From Planctomycetaceae bacterium (GTDB lineage Bacteria; Planctomycetota; Planctomycetia; Planctomycetales; Planctomycetaceae), in the NCBI GenBank assembly GCA_015485495.1, contig WFTL01000021.1, positions 1-61,623 on the forward strand: a stretch of 61,623 nt of DNA, written 5' to 3'. This document shows positions 40,166 through 43,780 of the stretch, piece after piece (position 1 is the first letter of the stretch; every line of letters starts with the position of its first letter). The notes beneath the pieces were generated by a model. It saw only the letters and a program-made list of their open reading frames with translations. It ran no database searches and was not told the DNA's origin. Position numbers and translations under genes: made by a program.

Positions 40166-43100
40166 ATGTTTCCTCGATTTGAAAACCTGGAACCGCATGC
40201 CGTCGACTCGCTGACGGCCCTGCTGGCGGACAGAGGCTGGGAAGATGCCGGCCGCTGCGCACAGACGCTGCAGGAACTGCGGGAATACTGGCGGGCGGTC
40301 CAGGGCGACAGTCAGGACACGCCGGACTGGTATGAAATTCTGGCCCGTCTTCTGCAGACGGCCATGAATCCTGCTGCGACTCTGGACGCCGTGCGCGATC
40401 TGATCCGGGCTTCTCCGTCTCCGCAGCATGCCTTCGATCTGTTCAGCCAGGCTCCGCGGTCTCTGGAGATTCTCAGTCGCTTCGCCGGCAGCAGCCCCTT
40501 TCTGACACACGTGCTGGTGTCTGATCCGGATGCCCTGCCCTTTCTGAGTGTTCACCGAAGGGTGTCCGAACTGAAATCCGACCGGCAGTTCACCGACGAA
40601 GCCGCTGCGTTCATCGCCCAGTCCCCGGAACCGCCTCTGACGGCCCTGCGGCAGTACCAGCGCCGGGAACAGCTTCGAATCGGCATGTGCGATGTGTTCG
40701 GTCTGTTCAGCCTGCAGCATGTGACGCTGCAGCTGTCTCTGCTGGCCGATGCCATGGTGCGGACGTGTCTGGAACTGGCCGAAACCGAGACCACGCGAGC
40801 ACCGTTTGCCGTGCTGGCCCTGGGGAAACTGGGCGGAGAAGAACTCAACTACAGTTCCGACATCGACCTGGTGCTCGTTGCAGATCACTGCGACAGCCAG
40901 GGGCTGACGGCGGCTCGCCGCATGATCGACAGTCTGAGCGAACATTCCGGAGGCGGCTTTCTGTATCGCGTGGATCTGCGGCTGCGGCCGTGGGGCAGCG
41001 CCGGTCCCCTGGTGACCACCCCCGATGCCTGGACGGAATACCTGGCCGGCCCGGCGCAGCTCTGGGAAAAACAGGCCCTGCTGAAGGCCCGCTGCATCGC
41101 AGGGAAAATCGAAACGGGCCGCAGGTTTCTCAGCCGCCTTCCCGAAGTGCTGTTCACGGAATCGAAACAGACGATTCGGGATTCGATTCGCCGCATGAAG
41201 GATGTCATCGAGGCGAATCTGGTCCGCACCGGAAGGCAGGACCGTGAAGTCAAACTGGGAATCGGTTCCATTCGTGACATCGAATTTCTCACTCAGTCGC
41301 TGCAGTTGATGCACTGCGGCCGCGAACCGCGGCTGGCCAGTGCCAACACGCTGCATGCTCTGCTGCGGCTGGCGGATTTCGGTCTGCTCGACGCTGCCAC
41401 CTATCAGCAGCTGAGGGAAGGCTATGTGTTTCTGCGGGCCGTGGAACACGCTCTGCAGCTTCAGCACAACCGGCAGACGCACGAGGTGCCCCGCGATGCC
41501 CGTCTGCAGCGCTGGCTGGCTTTGCGGCTCGACTATCCGGACGAAGCGACCTTCATGAATCGCTTTGAGGAACACCGACGCACGGTCCGCCGAATTTTCG
41601 AACGGCATTTCGGTTCGCATGCATCGGCCGGGGCCGCTGTCGCCCGGACAGATGCCGGATGGGAACCGCCAGGGGCCGCAGGACCGGATGCCGGCGGGCA
41701 GAAAACGGACAGCCGATTCGGTCCCGAACTGCAGCGGCTTCTGAAAGACGCTGCCGAATCGAAACGCGTGCAGGCCGAACTTCTGCCCGTGTCAGAAGAT
41801 CGGGGGGTGCTGCTGCTGGCAGCCGAAGACCGTCCGGAACTGCTGACGCTGATCAGCGGCCGACTGTTCGCCCTGGGAGTGGACATTCGCGATGGACGCG
41901 TATCGACCGGGCCGGGGGCTGCAGACGAAACAGATGTTCCTTCAGGAATGTTCGTCTGCCGAATGACGGTCGAATCGCAGACTGACGGCCGTTTGCCGGA
42001 TGCCCTGGCGGCCCGGCTGTGCGACGGGATTCAGCAAAGTCTGAAGACGATGCGCACGGACGGCCCGGATGTCGTCCGGGAACAGCTCATCGACGGGTTC
42101 TGCGAACGGATGCAGAGGCAGGACGGCAGCCGCCGGGGCAGCGGCCGACTGCGTCTGACGGACCGGGTTTCTCCGGACAGGAAGGCGACCATCGTTTCCA
42201 TTCATGTGACCGACAGTCCCGGGTTTCTGTTCGAACTGTCCAATGCGCTGAACGTGTGCGGCTTTCGCATCCGGCAGGCTCAGATCGAAGTGCACGACGG
42301 ATGCGTCGAAGATGAACTGTTCGTTACGGAATCGGACCGGCAGGAACCGCTGAGACCGGAACGGATTCGCGACGTACACACGGCGGTCGCCCTGATTCAG
42401 CAGTTCACTCTGTGGCTGCCGGACAGCGCCGATCCTGCGGCGGCTTTGCTGAGGTTCCGGAGGCTGCTGCAGGCGGTGCTGAACGACGTCCGCCACGACG
42501 AACGGGCACGGACGCTGCGCGATCCCGATGTCCTGCAGCGGGCGGCCCGGGTCCTGGGACTCAGCCGCCATCTCTGGGAAGACGCCCTGCGGCTGCAGGA
42601 ATCGGCGATGACTCTGCTGAGTGATCCGGAACCGCTGCGGACAGCGGTGACTCAGGACATCCTGCGGCATCAGGCACGGCAGATACTGCGGGAGCAGCCC
42701 GCTGCCGGTGATCCCGGTGGGGCCGATGCCACGGTTCGGCTGAACCGGTTCAAGGACGAGCATCTGTTTCGCATTGAACTGCGGCACGTGCTGGGACACA
42801 GCCGGGAATTCGGTGTATTCAGCCGCGAAATCTGCGAACTGGTAGAAGTGGTTCTGGAAACGGCTGCACAACTGGCCTGGCAGGAACTGGCCGTTCAGTC
42901 CGGGCAGGATGTTCCCCGGGTTCCCTGGACGCTGGCCGGACTGGGAAAACTGGGCGGCCGCGAAATGGGCTACGGGTCGGATGTCGAAGTGCTTCTGATT
43001 TATGACGGGGACGGCGATCGGAAAACCGCCCGCTGGTTCGATCGTCTGCTGCACCGCACGGTGGACCGGATTTCGTCGCGGCACGACGGGATTTTTCATG

Positions 43101-43780
43101 TCGATCTGAGAATGCGTCCGTGGGGACAGGCCGGAACAGCGGCCGTGTCACTCAGCCAGTTCCGCACCTATTACGGGGCCGGAGGCACCGCGTGGGCCTT
43201 CGAACGTCAGTCGATGATTCGTCTGAGGCCGTTTGGTTCGGATGAATCGTTTGCACAGCGGGTGCGCCGTGTCCGGGACGAAGTGATTTTCGACGGCCGG
43301 CCGTTCGATTTCGTGGCCATGCAGGGACTCCGGGAAGAACAGATCCGTCAGCATGTCGTTCCCGGGACAGTAAACGTCAAGCTCAGTCAGGGGGGGCTGG
43401 TTGATCTGGAGTATTCGGTCCAGGCGGTGCAGCTCACCTTCGGTCATCGTTTTGCAGAGCTGCGGACCACCGGCACCGCGACGGCTCTGGAAGCGGCGTT
43501 CGATCTGGGGCTGCTGCCGCAGAACATGCGTCGACCGGCACAGCAGGCCTGCTGGTATCTGCGCCGCGTGATCGACGGGCTGCGAATGGTGCGCGGCAAT
43601 GCCCGCGATCTGACCATGCCGCCGGCCGATTCTGCGGAAGGAATTCAGCTGGGAAGGCGGCTGGAACAGCTTTACGGCCCGGACACCTCGCCGGCGGATC
43701 TGAGCCGTCATCGGGATACGGTCAGCCGCCTGGCAGAAATCGTGACGGAACTCTGCGGGCGTCCGTCAGAAAATCCCTAA
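40166..43780 (+). CDS. glnE: Glutamine synthetase adenylyltransferase/adenylyl-removing enzyme with ACT-like insert
   Basis: A 1204-residue protein (E. coli GlnE is 946). The N-terminal nucleotidyltransferase half has LALGKLGGEELNYSSDIDLVLVADH near residues 218-245. The C-terminal half has LAGLGKLGGREMGYGSDVEVLLIYD near residues 921-945. The region between the halves carries two ACT-like segments: VLLLAAEDRPELLTLISGRL (about 548) and IVSIHVTDSPGFLFELSNAL (about 675), both followed by the strand-helix-strand pattern of ACT domains. In the C-terminal pair the second Asp is Glu (Asp-Val-Glu). GlnE adds and removes AMP on glutamine synthetase; control is usually by PII. The start at 40166 (MFPRFENLEP) is preferred; 40097 is an alternative. 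It overlaps the convergent DUF59 gene by 15 bp. Confidence 0.85.
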   Translation: MFPRFENLEPHAVDSLTALLADRGWEDAGRCAQTLQELREYWRAVQGDSQDTPDWYEILARLLQTAMNPAATLDAVRDLIRASPSPQHAFDLFSQAPRSLEILSRFAGSSPFLTHVLVSDPDALPFLSVHRRVSELKSDRQFTDEAAAFIAQSPEPPLTALRQYQRREQLRIGMCDVFGLFSLQHVTLQLSLLADAMVRTCLELAETETTRAPFAVLALGKLGGEELNYSSDIDLVLVADHCDSQGLTAARRMIDSLSEHSGGGFLYRVDLRLRPWGSAGPLVTTPDAWTEYLAGPAQLWEKQALLKARCIAGKIETGRRFLSRLPEVLFTESKQTIRDSIRRMKDVIEANLVRTGRQDREVKLGIGSIRDIEFLTQSLQLMHCGREPRLASANTLHALLRLADFGLLDAATYQQLREGYVFLRAVEHALQLQHNRQTHEVPRDARLQRWLALRLDYPDEATFMNRFEEHRRTVRRIFERHFGSHASAGAAVARTDAGWEPPGAAGPDAGGQKTDSRFGPELQRLLKDAAESKRVQAELLPVSEDRGVLLLAAEDRPELLTLISGRLFALGVDIRDGRVSTGPGAADETDVPSGMFVCRMTVESQTDGRLPDALAARLCDGIQQSLKTMRTDGPDVVREQLIDGFCERMQRQDGSRRGSGRLRLTDRVSPDRKATIVSIHVTDSPGFLFELSNALNVCGFRIRQAQIEVHDGCVEDELFVTESDRQEPLRPERIRDVHTAVALIQQFTLWLPDSADPAAALLRFRRLLQAVLNDVRHDERARTLRDPDVLQRAARVLGLSRHLWEDALRLQESAMTLLSDPEPLRTAVTQDILRHQARQILREQPAAGDPGGADATVRLNRFKDEHLFRIELRHVLGHSREFGVFSREICELVEVVLETAAQLAWQELAVQSGQDVPRVPWTLAGLGKLGGREMGYGSDVEVLLIYDGDGDRKTARWFDRLLHRTVDRISSRHDGIFHVDLRMRPWGQAGTAAVSLSQFRTYYGAGGTAWAFERQSMIRLRPFGSDESFAQRVRRVRDEVIFDGRPFDFVAMQGLREEQIRQHVVPGTVNVKLSQGGLVDLEYSVQAVQLTFGHRFAELRTTGTATALEAAFDLGLLPQNMRRPAQQACWYLRRVIDGLRMVRGNARDLTMPPADSAEGIQLGRRLEQLYGPDTSPADLSRHRDTVSRLAEIVTELCGRPSENP

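Follow-up and report, generated by a model that had tools for sequence, protein, structure and literature searches.

What does a glutamine synthetase-modifying enzyme do with a sensor module that resembles that of a different nitrogen-control protein? Adenylylation of glutamine synthetase (GS) is a textbook bicyclic cascade, in which glutamine is read mainly by GlnD and the signal is relayed via PII. The question arises from a glnE-type gene in a stretch of 61,623 nucleotides from a Planctomycetaceae bacterium (assembly GCA_015485495.1, contig WFTL01000021.1; 'the window' hereafter). An earlier note on this DNA had proposed that the gene product carries a tandem ACT-like insert between its two nucleotidyltransferase halves, joining GlnE-type catalysis to GlnD-type sensing. 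The reading favoured here, with more confidence than doubt, is that the protein is a GlnE-type GS adenylyltransferase/deadenylylase with a built-in ACT pair of the GlnD type, and that this pair probably senses glutamine, a ligand that we infer. If this is true, a GlnE equipped with the sensor pair of GlnD amounts to a one-protein version of the bicyclic circuit.

The insert is evident from the spacing of the two halves. They lie 307 residues apart in the window protein, compared with 79 in E. coli GlnE and 94–149 in ordinary planctomycete GlnEs (n = 18); in insert-bearing proteins the spacing is 294–354 (n = 33). By this comparison, the window GlnE has about 205–230 extra residues; the insert itself therefore stands, but the earlier estimate of about 260 residues was too high. 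An AlphaFold2 model of the insert was built from 80 aligned inserts, taken from the window and from fetched loci, and has a mean predicted local distance difference test score (pLDDT) of 87.8 and a predicted template modelling score (pTM) of 0.86. It contains two ACT units, and their predicted first strands (approximately residues 546–554 and 675–682) fall where ACT-like segments had been placed by eye (about 548 and 675). With VIA-align, the best structural match is the tandem ACT of an aspartate kinase (PDB 3l76; Z 11.0, root-mean-square deviation (rmsd) 3.0 over 145), followed by two threonine deaminase structures (8y1j, Z 9.2; 9d2r, Z 9.1). For the arginine sensor CASTOR1, Z falls to 5.7, inside the range of chance arrangements. 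In a full-length model (1154 residues, pLDDT 87.1, pTM 0.62), the ACT tandem reaches Z 13.0 on 3l76. Foldseek alone gave a confusing top list for the insert (a large glutamate dehydrogenase, and meganucleases at low probability); when the same candidates were re-aligned with VIA-align, ACT tandems ranked first. No solved chain matched the insert by sequence. Aspartate kinase and threonine deaminase share the paired ACT fold but are unrelated enzymes, and the fold gives no ligand.

The affinity of the module to GlnD emerges from sequence profiles. Pfam by itself would not have revealed the ACT pair; it was recognized through the NCBIfam models for GlnD, the predicted fold and a profile of the family. 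TIGR01693, the NCBIfam model for GlnD, matches the window protein in two stretches (9.2e-14), best at residues 549–727, which align with model positions 671–832; when the whole genome is searched, this stretch reaches 28 bits by itself (E = 9.1e-7). A profile made from inserts only matches 18/18 GlnDs in their C-terminal ACT region (E. coli GlnD with 6e-12) and none of 19 ordinary GlnEs (18 from planctomycetes and that of E. coli), so that the region is no ordinary GlnE linker. Its other matches in the searched set are two proteins already known to bear the insert. The alignment with GlnD is co-linear over ACT1, the intervening helix and ACT2. On the strength of these profiles and the predicted fold, which go well beyond chance, we identify the insert as two ACT domains in tandem that share ancestry with the pair at the C-terminal end of GlnD. 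Neither outcome that would have spoken against the earlier note, an insert with no predicted ACT fold or its presence in the ordinary GlnE linkers compared, was observed. The proteins differ in layout: GlnD combines a nucleotidyltransferase with an HD domain and the ACT pair at its C-terminal end, whereas the window protein lacks this full arrangement (TIGR01693 matches only with its N-terminal transferase part, positions 18–282, and its ACT end, positions 671–832, separately), and has its ACT units internally, with an extra stretch that makes the second hairpin of ACT1 longer than in GlnD. The homology suggests a route for sensor modules between two related nucleotidyltransferases of nitrogen control.

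Conservation in the module is high. The glycine of the loop after the first strand is present in 73/80 (ACT1) and 72/80 (ACT2) of the aligned inserts, and Gly565, Asp683 and Asp716 are identical in all 80. The loop glycine is named as nearly invariant and coincides with the ligand site of an ACT domain, according to PMC3173338.

Both halves that flank the module retain the hallmarks of GlnE. In Pfam searches with the window protein, PF03710 (GlnE; 1.8e-77) and PF08335 (GlnD_UR_UTase; 4.2e-35) each match in two stretches above the gathering score, and catalytic carboxylates are found in both halves (SSDID and VDLRL in the N half; GSDVE and VDLRM in the C half, where the third carboxylate is Asp980). 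As in E. coli GlnE (PDB 1v4a, 3k7d), two homologous nucleotidyltransferase halves follow one another, adenylyl-removing (AR) first and adenylyltransferase (AT) second. In a tree of 94 halves, the window N half clusters with E. coli AR, and in the full-length model it superposes on 1v4a (E. coli AR) with Z 39.9 and an rmsd of 2.7 over 406 residues. The C halves of insert-bearing proteins and their single-half relatives form one clade in the same tree (100/100), with the C halves of ordinary planctomycete GlnEs lying apart from it (98/96). When 86 halves are rooted on AR, the ACT-linked C clade is placed among AT halves (99% support in the Shimodaira–Hasegawa-like approximate likelihood ratio test), on a long stem of 1.13. 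The catalytic motifs follow the same division. All 52 N halves (33 insert-bearing, 19 ordinary) have the Asp of D-x-D, while the second carboxylate of the C half is Glu in 31/33 insert-bearing proteins (one Asp, one unresolved) and in all seven single-half rows (six distinct proteins), and Asp in 17/19 ordinary GlnEs (two unresolved). As judged from trees and motifs, the ACT-linked C halves are a lineage of their own among adenylyltransferase halves, and most of them have D-x-E; this lineage and the ACT-filled inter-half region distinguish the window protein from E. coli GlnE. A swapped order, with AT first, was considered because the N half had been matched by the AT portion of an NCBIfam GlnE model, and is rejected by the trees. 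The features are collected in Table 1.

Table 1. Features of the glnE-type gene in the window and of its product.
Feature	Residues	Position	Strand	Basis
glnE-type gene, 1204 amino acids: AR-like half, ACT-ACT, AT-like half		40166..43780	+	open frame, relatives' start, Pfam
N-terminal nucleotidyltransferase half, AR type	96–479	40451..41602	+	profile envelope, tree, model
N-half catalytic motif GKLGGEELNYSSDID (D-x-D)		40823..40867	+	coordinates checked
Tandem ACT module	519–753	41720..42424	+	TIGR01693 positions 671–832, AlphaFold2 model, insert profile
ACT1	546–632	41801..42061	+	predicted fold, alignment
ACT2	663–753	42152..42424	+	predicted fold, alignment
C-terminal nucleotidyltransferase half, AT type, ACT-linked lineage	791–1195	42536..43750	+	profile envelope, trees
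C-half catalytic motif GKLGGREMGYGSDVE (D-x-E replacing D-x-D)		42944..42988	+	coordinates checked

This form of GlnE, referred to below as GlnE-ACT, is part of a wide lineage and is not local to the organism of the window. In a sample of the phylum, 101 of 294 genomes match the window protein. Within its own family, 31 of 32 listed genomes (its own included) do so, several of them single-contig assemblies. All 31 have long open frames (1202–1386 amino acids), and 28 of the proteins were aligned through the insert; the insert is thus conserved in close homologues. Among other families of the same class, 19 of 20 listed genomes match; no insert was found in seven of these matches, the remaining 12 being judged by frame length only. 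A DNA scan of a genome collection with one C-half pattern returned 417 stretches and 390 relatives; the 80 top-ranking ones were retained. Since the pattern demands D-[IV]-E and ACT2 contributes to the ranking, the scan favours the ACT-linked type, and at least three of the 80 loci come from genomes already in the phylum sample. The kept loci belong to Planctomycetota, Chloroflexota, two 'Deltaproteobacteria' metagenome-assembled genomes (MAGs), one Spirochaetales MAG and one Abditibacteriales MAG. The insert profile matches directly before the C half in 80/80, partially in four cases (L078 and L089, at a contig end; L080, with ACT2 only, and L109, neither of them at one).

These data also dispose of the notion that the module is an artefact (a frame error, a chimeric assembly or simply a long linker of the ordinary GlnE kind). 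No supporting point was found for this notion, which can be regarded as refuted. The gene is one continuous frame in the window, the long frame recurs throughout the matching family genomes, and the insert profile passes over ordinary GlnEs. Moreover, in 66 of the 80 loci a single frame runs through at least part of an AR half, the insert and the C half; the other 14 have insert and C half together (four of these at a contig end). Among the papers listed in searches of a largely open-access literature, by title and the beginning of the abstract, none describes a GlnE with ACT domains. Neither 'ACT' nor 'GlnE' was found in PMC4285133, and a passage of PMC3710099 names GlnE only among HEPN-linked families. 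The window protein represents a new GlnE variant.

How might such an enzyme work? By homology, the N half would remove adenosine monophosphate from GS and the C half would add it. The most likely ligand of the ACT pair is an amino acid, and its kinship with GlnD puts glutamine first among the candidates. A glutamine-bound ACT pair would shift the balance to the AT half; high glutamine would then lead to adenylylation, and GS would be turned down. In the organism of the window, this switch would act beside PII and GlnD, while in many Anaerolineae it may be the sole nitrogen input to GlnE. Such a protein offers a compact system for asking how ligand binding can shift the balance between two active sites that work against each other. 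A ligand other than glutamine (alanine, histidine, serine or some other amino acid, or else a nucleotide) appears rather unlikely. Solved ACT domains do bind many ligands: those of aspartate kinase bind lysine or threonine, and another of the near folds, threonine deaminase 9d2r, has isoleucine according to its structure title. Yet the insert belongs by sequence with the GlnD pair, for which glutamine is the proposed ligand (PMC3173338, citing Zhang 2010), and the target of the enzyme is glutamine synthetase. In E. coli, the balance of GlnE activities is set by PII and uridylylated PII (PII-UMP), and glutamine itself stimulates adenylylation (PMC6490700). The two E. coli halves are linked by a central regulatory domain, as stated in PMC12409994; in GlnE-ACT, this central position is occupied by the ACT pair. 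A further parallel is provided by the plant proteins ACR11 and ACR12, which like the insert have a GlnD-like double ACT and are tied to nitrogen assimilation and GS (PMC3173338). Unlike GlnE-ACT, they are free-standing, with no nucleotidyltransferase.

Whether the module works with or without the classical relay can be approached through the GlnD and PII complements of the genomes concerned. Searches covered the window's genome and 80 further genomes, a strong PII match being one with E below 1e-20; in 14 control genomes, the PII search was positive in 13 and the GlnD search in five. The strongest support for the sensor idea comes from the Chloroflexota, not from the organism of the window. 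None of 22 Chloroflexota with the fused form has GlnD; three have a strong PII match, seven a weak one (E 1e-4 to 1e-6, most over the Pfam cut-off) and 12 none. A class sample around Anaerolinea thermolimosa (Anaerolineae; 101 genomes, completeness unstated, many of them MAGs) shares five genomes with the preceding sample. GlnE is matched in 29/101, with the ACT stretch seen in 28; the remaining match (G329) is a fragment of either type. GlnD was found in 0/29, the search returning only their own GlnE and partial matches. PII is strong in four of the 28, weak in nine and without match in 15. In Leptolinea sp. HRD-7 (G325), a complete genome by its record title, GlnD is absent and PII is matched weakly only. 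A lack of glnD or glnB in relatives, which the earlier note proposed to check, is therefore borne out in the Anaerolineae (24/28 without strong PII), and fails for the organism of the window, whose genome has glnD and two PII genes, as well as for 21 further genomes of its family.

For much of the Anaerolineae, and perhaps other lineages, it is about an even call that the GlnD–PII–GlnE cascade is contained in one protein, the ACT pair reading glutamine directly so that neither PII nor uridylylation takes part; the grafted unit would be the ACT pair plus AT half, which also occurs free-standing. This would be a natural explanation for bacteria that have an adenylylatable GS but no GlnD and no canonical PII. 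The absence of PII was also tried as a correlate of GlnE-ACT, and rejected: PII is scarce throughout the class, so that its absence is background, and the point is that GlnE-ACT is kept without PII.

The same distribution bears on the idea that the ACT pair serves for docking or oligomerisation, with PII, GS or a second copy of GlnE as its partner and without a small-molecule ligand, which we consider improbable. ACT domains often pair between chains. PII is present in 22/22 tested genomes of the window's family (its own included), weak PII-like proteins occur in some Anaerolineae, and a regulatory role for the inter-half region has the E. coli precedent (PMC12409994) in its favour. Docking of canonical PII, however, cannot account for the upkeep of the module in those Chloroflexota where no strong PII match is seen. 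Moreover, 72–80 of the 80 inserts keep the glycine and the acidic residues that characterize ACT loops with a bound ligand.

A GlnE variant requires a suitable substrate. Of 22 genomes searched, 20 have a type-I GS whose adenylylation loop resembles that of E. coli and contains a tyrosine. The motif DLY[DE]LP is present in the GS of 9/9 fused-form Chloroflexota searched, eight of which have no strong PII match. In the window's genome, a GS fragment (L052) reads DRDLYDLDPQ and aligns with the E. coli Tyr loop, so that the DLYDL-loop target of E. coli GlnE is present here too. The type-I GS of this genome is split across two fragments (L052 and L053; G000:C52 and G000:C128) with a common coding stretch, probably an assembly break. 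A GS gene lies at most 10 kb from the GlnE-ACT gene in 8/22 genomes (G321, G308, G057, G326, G319, G325, G249 and G294); in most of the other 14, the two are on separate contigs. The order in A. thermolimosa is glnE-ACT, sodium/hydrogen exchanger, ammonium transporter, glnA, with no glnK-sized frame listed between glnE-ACT and glnA.

Several results weigh against a glutamine-sensing ACT pair, or against its necessity. What the analysis shows is domain order, a predicted fold, homology, conservation and genomic context, including a GS with the target tyrosine; ligand binding, the identity of the ligand and the direction of the switch are what we infer. The window protein misses the NCBIfam cut-offs for GlnE equivalogs (400.3/625, 398/487 and 331.9/724 bits), and is therefore a divergent GlnE variant, not an equivalog. 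It also misses the Pfam gathering score of 27 for ACT (PF01842), with 12.5 bits for the protein and 16.4 for the insert; one relative, L038, reaches 27.6 bits. No E. coli-like tyrosine loop was seen in the inspected GS sequences of two genomes with an ACT-linked half (G228 and G323). The window's genome retains a full-length GlnD elsewhere (561 bits over TIGR01693 positions 7–847) and two strong PII genes; the ACT module is therefore not needed there as a replacement. The earlier proposal is thus supported in part: the union of GlnE-type halves with a homologous GlnD-type module holds, a lack of glnD or glnB in this organism does not, and direct sensing of glutamine would fit the findings. GlnD is missing from many bacteria in any case, as the control genomes illustrate, and strong PII is scarce in Anaerolineae without GlnE-ACT (8/73) as well as in those with it (4/28). 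The weak PII-superfamily matches in nine of the 28, most over the Pfam cut-off, may include a PII-like partner for GlnE-ACT. Only those of A. thermolimosa (G321) were inspected: one is a cyclic-di-AMP receptor (PF06153, 5e-25) and the other a PII-like protein (30 bits, Pfam cut-off 25), and neither resembles GlnB. The latter (L232; G321:C1:2336600-2337500) adjoins a frame that by eye resembles a membrane transporter; it may be a partner of GlnE-ACT or serve the transporter. Finally, among 11 genomes from the scan with single or cut loci, eight have at least part of GlnD and nine a strong PII match.

The most specific objection concerns ACT1 of the window protein, in which Glu558 (41837–41839) replaces the loop glycine; in ACT2, the glycine is retained (Gly686, 42221–42223). 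ACT2 therefore looks intact and ACT1 altered, and because of this loss the relatives make a better case than the window protein itself. The module might be a partly decayed remnant in this lineage, with GlnD and PII doing the sensing, although this seems unlikely. Besides Glu558, Arg566 stands in place of the usual Leu, and the window C half is on a long branch (0.97–0.98 in both trees). Against decay, ACT2 keeps Asp683 and Asp716 as well as its glycine, the nearest relatives (L007 and L048) retain the ACT1 glycine, and the model folds both ACT units well.

In other groups, GlnD and PII occur in varied combinations. All 21 further genomes of the window's family have both (GlnD of G210 just under the family cut-off), as do G095 and G003, which have the fused form; the Spirochaetales MAG has a GlnD-like gene and PII. 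Six planctomycetes with a single half have no GlnD (0/6) and strong PII in 4/6. Among 17 genomes with ordinary GlnE (13 examined by profile, four not), 12 have full-length GlnD (G067 just under the cut-off), and PII is above the Pfam cut-off in 16 and strong in 13. Three genomes from two sister families with ordinary-length GlnE frames (G226, G246 and G290) have GlnE and PII but no full GlnD.

The ACT-linked AT half also exists on its own. In five planctomycetes (G027, G057, G228, G249 and G273), the sole match is a single C-type half; a sixth, G082, has two matches, one of them listed, at a locus with one half. The ACT pair precedes the C-type half in five of the six, the exception (G273) being at a contig end. 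An N-half query of the first five loci matched only the C-half region, and thus no AR half lies nearby. In G027, G057, G228 and G249, a standalone ACT-ACT-AT protein is the sole GlnE-like match, which raises the question of how adenylylation is reversed. In all, standalone ACT-ACT-AT frames with no AR half in frame were noted at L036, L038, L039, L040, L065, L075–L077, L079, L081, L085 and L086; Planctomycetes bacterium Pan216 is one organism with such an enzyme. In the Abditibacteriales MAG (L134), an AR-type frame at a contig end (3–512) ends 18 bases before an ACT-ACT-AT frame opens in a different phase (530–2758); these may be two genes or the result of a frameshift.

As to the gene itself, the reading frame is free of stops from 40097 up to the stop at 43780 on the forward strand, and 40166 is favoured as the start by the two closest relatives, whose alignments with the window protein open at the same 'MFPxF'. 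A search of the whole assembly (4.67 Mb, 180 contigs, 98% complete) returned a single match to the window protein. The neighbouring genes are those for argininosuccinate lyase, a QueF-like protein and an iron-sulfur assembly protein; there is therefore no nitrogen locus around glnE in the window. The iron-sulfur assembly gene (PF01883) lies on the reverse strand, convergent with glnE, and the 3' ends of the two genes overlap by 15 bases (43766–43780).

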